Shown piece by piece: positions 1,672 through 15,417 of a DNA stretch of 64,000 nucleotides (position 1 is the first letter of the stretch; every line of letters starts with the position of its first letter). The position numbers and the translations under genes were made by a program. Under the pieces are notes generated by a model. That model did no database searches. It had not been told where the DNA came from and saw nothing but the letters and a program-made list of their open reading frames with translations. Source of the DNA: an uncultured Fretibacterium sp. (GTDB taxonomy: Bacteria > Synergistota > Synergistia > Synergistales > Aminobacteriaceae); assembly GCA_946183145.1 (NCBI GenBank), contig CAMGZM010000003.1:124001-188000 (forward strand), given 5' to 3'.

Positions 1672-2883
1672 TCATCTGCGTATTTCCTTCCACAATTCCG
1701 CAAGCGCAAAACGTACTGCCCTCGTTCTTACTTCCTCACGTTTTCCCGGCAAATTTTTCATGGCCGAATGAGTCCCATTAACGCCCGCAACGCCAAACCA
1801 GACAGTTCCGACAGGTTTCGACTCGCTTCCTCCGTCAGGCCCGGCAATTCCCGTAATGCTCACCGCGTAATCAGCTCCGTAAATCTTCATCGCGCCTTCT
1901 GCCATTTCACACGCACATTCAGAACTCACTGCCCCGAATTTTTCCAGCGTATCAAGTTTCACGCCCAAAATTTTGTACTTCGACTCGTTGCTGTATGTTA
2001 CTGCTGAGCCGTTGAACACATCAGAGCTTCCGGCAATCTCCGTTAATGCGCCTCCGACTAATCCGCCAGTGCATGACTCAGCGCACGCAACATGAATATC
2101 CTTTTTACGTGCCTCAATCAGTACAGCATCAGCTAGAGATTTAGACCCTTCAGGCAATACGAGTCCTTCAAACTTTGAGTGCGTAATCTCTTCAGCCCAT
2201 GAAACTATATCGGGCTCGCCGCGTATTATCAGCTCAACTTGCGGGAATGCAGGAAGGATTGAGACGTGAAGCCCCGAATGATTTATGACTTCCGGGATTT
2301 TTTGTGCTATGTGCATTTCGGGAGTGTCAAGAATTATCACTGATGCCGTGCGTCTCTCATCATGCGTAAAAATTTCTGGAAGCTCCTGGCGAATCATCGC
2401 TTCATACTCAAACGGGACTCCGGGCAATGCGATAACTTTTGTGCCGTCTCTCGTAAACTTCATACCTAATGCGAATCCTGCGGGATTGCAGACAGTTTCA
2501 GCGAGTTCGGGAATCATTGCCTGCGGGTCTCTCACGCTCTCGGTGTATGCGTAACGCCGGGGATCATCTTTCACGCGGGCTAATATGCGGTCATAAGATT
2601 CGTCATCAGGTTTGAGTCCGCACCCTAAATATTTTGCGACTGCATAGCGGGTTTTATCGTCATGTGTAGGGCCTAATCCCCCCGAAATTATGAGAACGTC
2701 AGTTTTTCCGATCCATCGCGACAAAAGGGAAATGATTTCTTCTTCCTCGTCCGAAATTATTTCTATTCGTTTTACGTTGATTCCTTTTGCGTGAAAATTC
2801 CCGGCCATGAAGTTAGCGTTTCTCTCAAGCCTCGCACCGCTCAATAATTCATCGCCTATTGCCGCAAGTACTGCATTTTTCAT
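1672..2883 (-). CDS. cinA: CinA family protein (competence/damage-inducible, NMN amidohydrolase type)
   Basis: Two-domain CinA of 403 residues. The N-terminal half is a molybdopterin-binding-like domain (IGDELLSGARLERN near the start, then ISGGLGPTHDDKTR). The C-terminal half is the CinA domain with the ACAESCTGGL motif and a SITGIAGPDGGS segment. Family members act as nicotinamide mononucleotide deamidases and/or ADP-ribose pyrophosphatases in pyridine nucleotide recycling. I chose the ATG at 2883 because it overlaps the pgpA stop (ATGA) and has a GAGGTG ribosome site. An 11-residue longer form is possible but would run further into pgpA. Linkage to recA is common in bacteria. Confidence 0.93.
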   Translation of the reverse strand: MKNAVLAAIGDELLSGARLERNANFMAGNFHAKGINVKRIEIISDEEEEIISLLSRWIGKTDVLIISGGLGPTHDDKTRYAVAKYLGCGLKPDDESYDRILARVKDDPRRYAYTESVRDPQAMIPELAETVCNPAGFALGMKFTRDGTKVIALPGVPFEYEAMIRQELPEIFTHDERRTASVIILDTPEMHIAQKIPEVINHSGLHVSILPAFPQVELIIRGEPDIVSWAEEITHSKFEGLVLPEGSKSLADAVLIEARKKDIHVACAESCTGGLVGGALTEIAGSSDVFNGSAVTYSNESKYKILGVKLDTLEKFGAVSSECACEMAEGAMKIYGADYAVSITGIAGPDGGSESKPVGTVWFGVAGVNGTHSAMKNLPGKREEVRTRAVRFALAELWKEIRR

Positions 2884-3359
2884 TTCGTCATCACCTCTAT
2901 TAACCCGTAAAGCCATCCCGCATGATAAAAATATGCGTTGAAGCCCTGAAGTATTACGTTGCCGAGAATGCCGCCTAAAATGTCATCGGCCATTATTCCC
3001 CATCCGCCCGGCAATTTCTCCATTGCGCAGACTGGCCACGGCTTGAGAATGTCTATCAGCCTGAACAGAAAGAAGCCCGGTATTATGAATCCCTGAGGCA
3101 ATGCGTATATTGTCAGCCACATTCCGGGAAGCTCATCGATATTCAGGAAGCTCGGATCTTTCTTGTTGAAGTATGTCTCTGATTTCCCCGTAACGTATAC
3201 TCCTATGAATGACACTGCGACAATCGCCCACAAAGGAACGTCAGCAACAATTCTCACAAGACACGCGAACGCTGAACTAACTGTGCCGGGCATACCTGAC
3301 GGAATGAATCCGAGTCCGAACAAGCTCGCTGCCCATACATACCACGGATAATTTTTCAT
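2880..3359 (-). CDS. pgpA: Phosphatidylglycerophosphatase A
   Basis: Integral membrane phosphatase of 159 residues, the normal family length. It converts phosphatidylglycerol phosphate to phosphatidylglycerol in membrane lipid synthesis. Recognised by the PgpA signature blocks: GFIPSGMPGTVSS near the N-terminus, IDELPGMW around residues 74-81, FRLIDILKPWP, and LPGGWGIMADDILGG, which holds the metal-binding acidic pair. Several hydrophobic segments alternate with these motifs. Its stop overlaps the cinA start by 4 nt. It follows the STAS-kinase gene by 1 nt, so it lies inside one minus-strand operon. Confidence 0.93.
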   Translation of the reverse strand: MKNYPWYVWAASLFGLGFIPSGMPGTVSSAFACLVRIVADVPLWAIVAVSFIGVYVTGKSETYFNKKDPSFLNIDELPGMWLTIYALPQGFIIPGFFLFRLIDILKPWPVCAMEKLPGGWGIMADDILGGILGNVILQGFNAYFYHAGWLYGLIEVMTK

Positions 3360-10056: not shown

Positions 10057-10677
10057 TCACCATAAATTATTCTTGTAGTTGAAGAACGTCAGTATATTTC
10101 CCAGCAACCACTCTTCGTCATTTAGTGCCTGACGATAATCACATGTCTCACTGAAATATATTCTGATGCGTTTTCCTTTCGCTGTAAGATGTGCTACAGC
10201 CTTATTCAATGTTATATTCGTACTCTGGCTTCCCCCGGGATTTCCATACTGCTGAAAGCGGCGGCCTATTTTCTCCGCGCTGCCTAAGTATAATAGCAGG
10301 TTGTCAATTTTATTTTTGCTGGACTTTTTGCGCCACGTATCAAATGTATAGGGAAGCCATGTGCTTTGACTGTTGAGATCCCAACCGTCAGCAACCCAGA
10401 AATACACGCCCGGATCATTTCTTCCGTTCAGGCCCGGAACTGTAAATCTGCACTGTGAACCATTAGAAGCATTAACTTGTATATTTCCGCAGTCTTCCAA
10501 GGCGTAAAGTGTACGTATTGTTGGGCTGCGCGGATCAAAAACGCTGCGACTCAAATACGGGAAATCGGACGAAGAACTTGACGCACGGTTATTGCTGTTA
10601 CTTTTGTTGCTGTCGTCTCCGAAAAAATAGTTATACCCCGCTATTAATGCTCCTCCCAATGCAATCCATTCAAGCAA
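10057..10677 (-). CDS. Membrane-anchored protein with GIY-YIG-like motifs
   Basis: 206 residues. The N-terminus is a hydrophobic stretch (about 3-19), followed by an Asn/Ser-rich linker. The C-terminal part shows a pattern reminiscent of GIY-YIG nucleases: a GVYFW segment, then LLLYLGSAEKIGRRFQQYGN with the Tyr-Leu-Gly and Arg of the motif, then a late ALNDEEWLL stretch that may hold the catalytic Glu. I cannot confirm the fold. The start is a TTG at 10677, nine nt after AAGGAG. It sits alone between the deacetylase and rny. Confidence 0.55.
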   Translation of the reverse strand: MLEWIALGGALIAGYNYFFGDDSNKSNSNNRASSSSSDFPYLSRSVFDPRSPTIRTLYALEDCGNIQVNASNGSQCRFTVPGLNGRNDPGVYFWVADGWDLNSQSTWLPYTFDTWRKKSSKNKIDNLLLYLGSAEKIGRRFQQYGNPGGSQSTNITLNKAVAHLTAKGKRIRIYFSETCDYRQALNDEEWLLGNILTFFNYKNNLW

Positions 10678-13273: not shown

Positions 13274-13304
13274 TCCTTCCTCGTGAGTGAGGGAGGATTT
13301 TTTT
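13274..13304 (+). terminator. Intrinsic terminator after ymdB
   Basis: A 9-bp stem, TCCTTCCTC against GAGGGAGGA with one G-U pair, closes a 6-nt loop and is followed by seven T residues. The convergent DpnII fragment ends inside the T-tract. Confidence 0.9.
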
Positions 13305-13839
13305 ACGCGCTGAAAATCTGAGAGAAAACTCCGTTCTCCATGTCCTTAATGTTGAAGAGGGTATCAAGCACGGAGAATGTTTCATGAAGATCATTCTTTG
13401 CGCCTTCCCAGCCCTTGCCGTCAGTAATCCACATAAACGTGAAGCCGGGAATATTGCGTGAATGCTCTGCTATAAGTCTGTAGCTTCTTGCGGTTTCGCT
13501 GATTTTTGAGCCGTAAGAAGCGTAAAAATTTGACTCGATTGTGTAGACATGGCCGACACCCGGAGGGAGACCGCTTGCGGGCAGAGTTTTTACGGCAAAA
13601 TCCCAGCGTTTATTTTTTGCGAATGATTCAGGCAGTGTGATTCCGAATTGCTTTGTGAGTATGCTTGTTTTTATTTCGCGTGAATATGTTACGCCGGATT
13701 TTTTGAGGAAGTATTCTACAAGATGTTCCATTTGATGGCCGCCTCTGTTTTTCCGACCGTTTGAATCGAGTCCTGTTTCAACGCCCGTAACATAATCGTT
13801 AAGGTCATGAATGATGTTATTCTGTATCAATCTCATCAT
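13303..13839 (-). pseudogene. N-terminally truncated DpnII/MboI-type restriction endonuclease
   Basis: The 178-residue product matches the C-terminal part of DpnII (288 residues, cuts unmethylated GATC) from LIQNNIIHDLNDYVTGVETG onwards. The blocks GLDSNGRKNRGG, RWDF with IESNFY (putative PD-ExN catalytic residues), ETARSYRLIAEHS and FMWITDGKGWEGAKN are all clear. About the first 110-140 residues are missing. Upstream sequence is instead the end of a DpnD-like gene, and no good ribosome site precedes the ATG. No GATC methyltransferase is seen in the window, although active DpnII needs one. Probably a dead remnant. A naturally short variant is less likely. Confidence 0.75.
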
Positions 13840-14027
13840 TCCACACTTTGAATAAGCCATCCTTCCACAACTTGAACTCAACTCCCGTAAAATTTTCCGA
13901 GTCAAGAATGTATTCTCCGCTGTTGTAACTGTCTTCTGCTTTCTCTAATGCTTCCGTCTTCATTGTCAGCTTCAACAGTAACAACCTTTTCTAGCGTCTC
14001 CATTATCAAAACTTCAAACTTTGGCAT
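13817..14027 (-). pseudogene. dpnD: Frameshifted DpnD-like gene
   Basis: Starting at the ATG (14027) after a strong AGGGG site, the frame encodes MPKFEVLIMETLEKVVTVEA and then fails. A second frame continues the same protein: TEALEKAEDSYNSGEYIL, then DSENFTGVEFKLWKDG, ending at TAA 13819-13817. Joined, these give a roughly 70-residue protein with the look of DpnD/PcfM-family proteins, the small partner encoded beside DpnI. The switch needs one extra base near 13955-13960. It could be a real mutation or a sequencing or assembly error. The gene starts 1 nt after the DpnI stop. Confidence 0.7.
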
Positions 14028-14028
14028 G

Positions 14029-14799
14029 TTATCCCCTCCGAATTTTTTTGTACCTTCCATTGCCGAGAAACTCAATAAATCCTTTGTCCCTGAGATACTG
14101 CAATTGCTGCCGGATTTTTGCGCGTATGTTGTGATTGTCAGGGTGCTTTTCTCTCAGCTCATCCGTGAACACACATACGTCATCAAGCGAAAATATATCG
14201 TCTGCGATCTTATCAGTACATTTCAGAATGTCCATAAGCCAGCCCCGCAAATTCATATTGCCGACTTTCAGCTTCACGGCCTCTGCGTAATTTCTCAGAA
14301 CGGAATCTTTGTCGCGTTCCCTGTGAGACTCGATTACCGGGATTTTTCCGATGATTGGAATCTCACTGTACATTATCCACGAGCCTATATACCCTGCGCG
14401 CCTCGCTGTTTGTGCTAACGGAGGGCGTATCTTCAAAATGTCGGGCGTGAAAAAATATTTTGGTACAACCGTCAAATCTTCAACAGAATTTTCATGATAC
14501 CTCATCACAAACAAATTCGGATTCGTGCTGCTCGTTATCCGTGAAAGTGCCGCGTAATATGCTCCGTCAAGAATACTTTTCCCGATTGAGTCGCGCTTGC
14601 TTTTGAGTTCGTATATTTCCCCGCATGACTCACATTTGAAGTCAGCAACTCTTGAATTATTCGGAAGGTGCAGCAGTGAGACATTCCCGCATGAAGGGCA
14701 GTACATTTCCTGCGTCATCCATAACTCACTGACGACTCGTATTATCTGTGAGGGACTCTTGTAGCGTGATGATGTTAATTCCGGCAATGTGAGATTCAT
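14029..14799 (-). CDS. dpnC: DpnI-type methyl-directed restriction endonuclease
   Basis: 256 residues, against 254 for pneumococcal DpnI. DpnI cleaves GATC only when the adenine is N6-methylated, so it needs no protective methyltransferase. A zinc site is formed by C34, C37, C56 and C59. The nuclease core is ADF with D53 and ELKSK with E64 and K66. Family blocks include PPLAQTARRAGYIG. The C-terminal winged helix, which reads the methylated site, has IRQQLQYLRDKGFIEF. All key residues are intact, so the enzyme is probably active. The host's own GATC sites must then lack Dam-type methylation. It is transcribed divergently from the cyclophilin operon. Confidence 0.95.
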   Translation of the reverse strand: MNLTLPELTSSRYKSPSQIIRVVSELWMTQEMYCPSCGNVSLLHLPNNSRVADFKCESCGEIYELKSKRDSIGKSILDGAYYAALSRITSSTNPNLFVMRYHENSVEDLTVVPKYFFTPDILKIRPPLAQTARRAGYIGSWIMYSEIPIIGKIPVIESHRERDKDSVLRNYAEAVKLKVGNMNLRGWLMDILKCTDKIADDIFSLDDVCVFTDELREKHPDNHNIRAKIRQQLQYLRDKGFIEFLGNGRYKKIRRG

Positions 14800-14880: not shown

Positions 14881-15417
14881 ATGTACAAATTAATCTGCAA
14901 GATTCTCGCGCTCGCTTTCGTATGTTCCCCGGCATTCGCTGATGAACCCGTGAAACGTCCCCTCGCAAAATTCCAGACCTCAATGGGAGATTTCACCATC
15001 GAATTATATTCAGACCTCGCGCCCAACACCGTAACAAACTTCATCACATTAGCACGCAAAAATTTCTATGACGGCGTAATCTTTCACCGCGTAATCGACA
15101 AGTTCATGATTCAGGGCGGCGATCCCACAGGAACAGGCAGAGGCGGACCGGGTTACGCGATTCCCGACGAGTTCGGCGAAGGACTCAAGCATGACGCTCC
15201 CGGCATTCTCTCAATGGCTAACGCTGGCCCTAACACAGGAGGCTCACAATTCTTCATTACGCTCGTCCCGACTCCGTGGCTTGACGGCCATCACGCTATA
15301 TTCGGTCATGTTGTTGACGGTATGAATGTTGTTGAGAAAATCGGCCATGTGAAAACTGACAGGCAGGACAGGCCGAAAGAAGACGTAACAATCAAGACAA
15401 TCACAATCGAGGAGTAA
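14881..15417 (+). CDS. Exported cyclophilin-type peptidyl-prolyl isomerase
   Basis: 178 residues with a signal peptide (hydrophobic 4-18, cleavage probably after ...PAFA). The cyclophilin domain follows with VIFHRVIDKFMIQGGDP, GSQFFIT and WLDGHHAIFG, including the catalytic Arg and the Phe/Met pocket residues. It should assist folding of exported proteins in the periplasm. AAGGAGG lies about 13 nt upstream of the ATG, longer than usual. The next gene starts 3 nt after its stop. It is the first gene of an operon running to mutS2. Confidence 0.93.
   Translation: MYKLICKILALAFVCSPAFADEPVKRPLAKFQTSMGDFTIELYSDLAPNTVTNFITLARKNFYDGVIFHRVIDKFMIQGGDPTGTGRGGPGYAIPDEFGEGLKHDAPGILSMANAGPNTGGSQFFITLVPTPWLDGHHAIFGHVVDGMNVVEKIGHVKTDRQDRPKEDVTIKTITIEE

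Follow-up and report, generated by a model that had tools for sequence, protein, structure and literature searches.

The locus lies in a 64,000-nucleotide stretch of the genome of an uncultured Fretibacterium sp., a gut bacterium (the stretch is hereafter called the window, and the genome G000), where DpnI (14799-14029), a dpnD-like gene and the remaining 3' portion of dpnII, ending at 13303, follow one another on the minus strand. The DpnI gene (14029-14799, minus strand) encodes 256 amino acids and is intact, as the initial annotation had supposed. Its product matched the entire DpnI domain (PF06044, 3.5e-60) and the DpnI_C domain (PF17726, 4.3e-31) in Pfam, was recognised by PADLOC as mREase_II (1e-81), and is homologous to the solved DpnI structures (PDB 4ESJ/4KYW), with an alignment spanning 243 residues. 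The protein is full-length, with an N-terminal PD-(D/E)XK domain carrying a zinc ribbon and a C-terminal winged helix, and the D53-E64-K66 active site and the ribbon cysteines are retained. Alignment to the solved DpnI showed a tyrosine at the position of the methyl-sensing Trp138; natural DpnI homologues with tyrosine at this position exist, and the tyrosine variant of DpnI is partly active (PMC4117772). From its sequence, the window enzyme is predicted to cut Gm6ATC.

The dpnD-like gene (13817-14027, minus strand) was assigned to the DpnD-PcfM family (PF14207, 1.3e-16) with its frames joined, the only version run against Pfam. This match bears out the initial annotation, which had overlooked, however, that the reading frame is discontinuous, a +1 frameshift interrupting it near 13955. 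The dpnD genes of four relatives (G030, G031, G022 and G006) are uninterrupted, whereas that of the window is shifted by one base beside an intact DpnI. The final codons of the window gene are shared with the DpnII sequence to which it is joined.

The dpnII remnant (13303-13839, minus strand) is an open frame of 178 codons corresponding to DpnII codon 116 to the end. It matched PF04556 over model positions 115-276 of 278 (1.1e-56), about 59% of the protein, in line with the C-terminal ~60% estimated earlier. Codons 1-115 are absent, and the piece is not a DpnII but part of a DpnII gene, full-length close relatives having 275-300 residues. A PDB search with the fragment returned no homologue. 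Its homology to intact DpnII begins at codon 116 (~13830), within the final dpnD codons, and the earlier statement that the fragment starts where the dpnD-like gene ends therefore held. The recombination junction, where the end of dpnD is joined to DpnII codon 116, was placed at 13830-13831 (minus strand), with support from the breakpoint in the blastn alignments to relatives of the DpnI type and of the DpnII type. Furthermore, the remnant carries a 27-bp insertion (13557-13583, minus strand) that no other examined DpnII sequence shares. This private insertion, which encodes nine residues (LPASGLPPG) between two conserved core strands, points towards decay. The right flank of the locus is a YmdB-type metallophosphoesterase gene (TIGR00282; 12441-13241, plus strand), and the left flank is a peptidyl-prolyl isomerase (PPIase) gene (14881-15417, plus strand). 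Near the locus, at 10057-10677 (minus strand), lies a gene for a 206-residue protein that matched nothing in Pfam or PADLOC.

The window genome (2.55 Mb, rated 100% complete) was searched for partners of the two enzymes. The locus holds no methylase, as noted earlier, and the genome-wide search found neither a member of the D12/Dam family nor a DpnA orthologue, the best DpnA relative being 42% identical and probably a CcrM-like enzyme by sequence. A cognate GATC methylase for a DpnII restriction-modification system is thus lacking both at the locus and genome-wide, which is consistent with a host without GATC methylation. The same search showed the fragment to be the sole DpnII of the genome.

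We compared 151 genomes (G000 and 150 relatives, including rumen Synergistaceae), most of them metagenome-assembled, such that assembly errors could account for some of the frameshifts or absences. DpnII was found in 27 and DpnI in 19 of the 151. The complete DpnII system of the genus consists of two genes in an operon, DpnII being preceded by a DpnA-like methylase of the beta class (PF01555). A D12/Dam enzyme was considered as the missing partner and rejected: the D12 search had missed the methylase of the DpnII operon, which is of the DpnA type. The full DpnII-plus-Dam alleles sought in related genomes were accordingly found in part, since complete operons do occupy the window-equivalent locus (L063 and L069), but with DpnA in place of Dam. 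The intact DpnA-DpnII operon lies between the YmdB-type and PPIase genes in G004 and beside YmdB in G040. An empty allele, in which YmdB is directly followed by PPIase, is present in about 11 genomes, including G011, G016, G017, G032, G034, G035, G039 and G041. DpnI, dpnD and a DpnII remnant occupy the site in G000, G030 and G031, and G006 and G022 carry PPIase-DpnI-dpnD without the remnant. The YmdB flank is common to the empty and DpnA-DpnII alleles, and the PPIase flank to these and the DpnI alleles. Alternative GATC systems therefore occupy one chromosomal site across the relatives, as in Dpn-type cassette exchange. At a third site, with shared upstream genes, G026 carries DpnA and a frameshifted DpnII, and G034 carries DpnI and a frameshifted full-length DpnII. 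In G042, an intact DpnA stands beside a frameshifted DpnII, in which a homopolymer run is short of one A relative to G008 (98%-identical proteins); this loss (L065 versus L076) might reflect phase variation or an assembly error. One genome without a DpnII match (G014) encodes a DpnA of 72% identity (contig C32, 34841-35596; L127), a possible orphan GATC methylase. No DpnII relatives were found among viral contigs.

Alignment with blastn showed that the window locus is a mosaic. G022 aligned over PPIase-DpnI-dpnD only (positions 1-1717 of the locus), and the DpnII strain G040 over the DpnII remnant and YmdB only (1771-3286), with the switch point at the end of dpnD. In the DpnII tree, the remnants of G000 and G030 grouped with the DpnII of G040 (support 96), followed by G031 (87); the remnant of G016 joined the DpnII of G015 from the same, second shared locus (99), G029 joined G002 (96), and G054 and G080, which belong to another genus, were placed elsewhere. 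Where this could be tested, remnants thus clustered with the intact DpnII found at the same locus. The remnants are polyphyletic, which indicates several independent replacements; we count at least four in the family Synergistaceae. The DpnI proteins of the PPIase-site genomes form one group, so that part of one event may be common to G000, G030 and G031, and G000 and G030/G031 may represent one event or two. The junctions also vary, lying at codon 116 in G000, at about codon 124 in G030 and G031, and later in others. Remnant lengths range from 29 to ~280 residues, many with stops or frameshifts. A family of naturally ~180-residue DpnII proteins always encoded beside DpnI, the counter-explanation named in the initial annotation, is contradicted by these variable lengths, the polyphyly and the stops and frameshifts.

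The distribution of DpnI and DpnA was also examined across the genus. Of its 43 genomes, 12 had DpnI and 13 had DpnA, counted at an identity of at least 67%, and only G004 had both. The DpnI of G004, located at another site, is a pseudogene with an in-frame stop, a zinc-ribbon cysteine changed to tyrosine and a conserved glycine changed to cysteine. The chance of zero functional overlap was 0.006-0.016 in a hypergeometric test that ignores shared ancestry. DpnI and DpnA are thus almost mutually exclusive in the genus, with the caveat that three DpnI-positive genomes (G006, G022 and G031) encode elsewhere a D12 methylase of unassigned specificity. GATC is scarce in the window (89 sites against 220 expected under a Markov model, a ratio of 0.40). 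However, loci of 33 congeners showed GATC at about half of expectation throughout the genus, whatever the current system, and the shortage was dropped as a diagnostic; it may have been left by prolonged exposure to restriction at GATC.

DpnI cuts Gm6ATC and DpnII cuts unmethylated GATC, and neither DpnI in a cell possessing a GATC methylase nor DpnII in a cell lacking one can be tolerated (PMC3573125, PMC12707154). Taken together, the window locus very probably arose when one GATC system was exchanged for another, incompatible one. The reading of the locus as the scar of a past exchange, already proposed in the initial annotation, is strengthened by the alleles at the same locus, the mosaic halves, the grouping of remnants with their own loci and the exclusivity of DpnI and DpnA. 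Direct observations are the mosaic, the alternative alleles at one site, the repeated independent occurrence and the fact that every relative of a GATC methylase or of DpnII found beside DpnI was truncated. The ancestor would have carried the two-gene operon of DpnA, a GATC methylase, and DpnII between the YmdB and PPIase genes. Incoming DpnI-dpnD DNA would then have replaced the methylase and the first 115 dpnII codons, leaving the 3' part of dpnII behind, probably entering by homology on the PPIase side and by illegitimate joining within dpnII. Loss of the methylase alone would leave a lethal DpnII, and gain of DpnI alone would be lethal in a methylated cell; we infer from this that both functions were removed in one recombination event. 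The survivor would possess a predicted active DpnI but neither GATC methylation nor a functional DpnII, its remnant presumably inactive and drifting. Such scars fit the filter of selection, which would admit DpnI where it destroys the methylase and where DpnII is disrupted at the same time or already dead.

The latter order is a second route suggested by relatives. DpnII would first be inactivated and DpnI would then replace the orphan DpnA, the 5' part of dpnII being lost at that time or later. Arrangements compatible with this path exist, namely DpnA beside a frameshifted DpnII in G026 and G042 and DpnI beside a frameshifted full-length DpnII in G034, although their frameshift positions differ and hence trace no common path. 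In the window, dpnD ends precisely at the junction and nothing of the upstream part of dpnII is left, which is the outcome expected from a single exchange. For the window we consider the stepwise order possible but rather unlikely.

We also considered that the fragment might still function, for instance as a short nuclease of the DpnII type, as a regulator that binds DNA or as a protein acting together with DpnI. In a custom branch codon model, the background omega was ~0.15, whereas the remnants reached 0.34-0.36 in G000 (2dlnL 3.0-4.1), 0.58 in G030 (9.8) and 0.37 for both jointly (13.2), with no comparable rise on the terminal branches of intact DpnII. For the G000 remnant, omega = 1 fitted nearly as well (lnL -5856.6 versus ~-5855.1). 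The raised values fit a recent loss of constraint following a functional period. The structure of a near-full DpnII from L178, predicted from six sequences, had a mean pLDDT of 54, with fair confidence in the C-terminal core only; in this low-confidence model the retained window part covers the predicted catalytic core. A functional protein would explain the open frame, the intact core motifs (RWDF...ExNF), the fragment's own ATG overlapping dpnD and the dN/dS of 0.36, and PADLOC does include a 205-residue DpnII-like REase model (74 bits). However, an active GATC nuclease would be lethal in an unmethylated cell, the lost N-terminal ~115 residues are found in every intact close relative, and the nine-residue insertion and the sister remnants, which carry stops or shrink to 29-92 residues, also argue against a retained function, which we regard as highly improbable. 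We infer that the fragment is biochemically dead; with an open frame, a complete predicted core, its own ATG and a dN/dS below 1, it has either died recently or is not demonstrably dead. Equally hard to credit is a single mobile DpnI-dpnD-DpnII' unit, built once and spread with the fragment as hitch-hiking cargo and no exchange at the window locus: the order is identical in several species and G030 and G031 have one junction in common, but the reading was rejected on the DpnII tree, where the remnants group with intact DpnII of their own loci and not with each other, and on the differing junctions and lengths, and, moreover, dpnD precedes DpnI in G054 and G080 and is missing in G034, and other DpnI loci retain methylase stubs instead.

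The kind of exchange is already known. At the dpn locus of Streptococcus pneumoniae, the incompatible GATC cassettes DpnI, DpnII and DpnIII swap at one chromosomal site (PMC4263131, PMC12707154). The window locus resembles it in having alternative GATC systems at a single site and DpnI followed by dpnD, but the exchange was incomplete and left a truncated DpnII, as opposed to the whole-cassette exchange described for S. pneumoniae, and the DpnII cassette in these Synergistaceae hosts consists of two genes, a DpnA-type methylase and the nuclease, with no DpnM. In Neisseria, the dam replacing gene drg (NmeBII) is a DpnI homologue in the dam locus, dam is truncated in some meningococci, gonococci carry a DpnIIB-like enzyme behind drg, and dam+ and drg+ have been described as mutually exclusive (PMC4269198, PMC516771). 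Here, too, a DpnI homologue stands in place of a GATC methylase with a DpnII-type gene behind it, as in gonococci. However, the victim in Neisseria was a solitary dam by leuS; here it was a DpnA-DpnII operon in another chromosomal position, and the intact, the empty and the replaced allele all occur within one genus. S. anginosus J4206 (L186) shares with the window the order DpnI-dpnD and then a DpnII 3' remnant, but its scar is two-sided, a 5' stub of a D12 (DpnM-type) gene lying upstream of DpnI. A literature search, with poor coverage of subscription journals, found no report of remnant-bearing DpnI loci in other phyla. The DpnA-DpnII victim with all three alleles in one genus and the recurrence across several phyla appear to be new.

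We extended the comparison to 91 DpnI loci (80 from GTDB and 11 further Streptococcus). A truncated D12 methylase, DpnA and/or DpnII piece was found within 1.2 kb of DpnI in 22 of them, a proportion that is not an unbiased rate, the loci having been picked by closeness to the window DpnI. The 22 loci belong to seven phyla as given in the titles of the database records. The debris was on the DpnI strand in all 22, and none of the pieces was intact; 583 kb of farther flank gave just two weak non-generic matches. Weak scores underlie two of the 22 (L149 and L239), and the methylases of L158 and L204, cut at the C-terminus only, were counted as truncated on sequence, whether dead or not. Debris flanked DpnI on both sides in six loci: the D12 stub and DpnII 3' end (profile positions 232-278, one stop) around DpnI-dpnD in S. 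anginosus J4206, a D12 stub and a DpnII piece around dpnD-DpnI in Fretibacterium RUI518, DpnA (8-111) and a DpnII without start in a Desulfurellales bin, a D12 with altered motifs and changed C-terminus and DpnII (136-279) in a Selenomonadaceae bin, and a D12 piece and a DpnA piece in two Bacteroidales bins. One-sided debris was found in Flavobacterium, Psychrobacter, Uhrbacteria, a Phycisphaerae bin, Clostridia and further Bacteroidales. In the 11 other Streptococcus DpnI loci, no DpnII remnant was found beyond that of S. anginosus.

Wreckage of the same type beside DpnI in seven phyla indicates that the hazardous swap of the opposing system for DpnI occurred many times independently. On balance, we favour the view that DpnI entering GATC-methylating bacteria generally inserts into and destroys the resident methylase operon, leaving a 5' methylase stub and a 3' DpnA or DpnII stub, never intact, in at least seven phyla, and that this is a general rule rather than a peculiarity of Neisseria and Streptococcus. 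DpnI and DpnII are the textbook pair unable to share a cell, and the passage between them has been difficult to observe. These loci would be fossils of that passage at different stages and in many phyla, open to dating, counting and reconstruction in laboratory strains. They suggest that a switch is viable only if the methylase and the opposing nuclease are destroyed together, or the nuclease first, and the debris could serve as a marker for past exchanges from sequence alone. Weak C-terminal matches to the DpnA profile beside DpnI (L158, L165, L167, L185, L187, L214 and L220) were set aside as generic, mostly representing other methylases. Separately, a recurrent N6/N4 methylase gene of another family (PF01555; 'THDAKWRGNWSPYIPRNIILRYSKEGD') was observed right behind DpnI in L158, L165, L167 and L214, its hosts being Clostridia, Treponema and Selenomonas.
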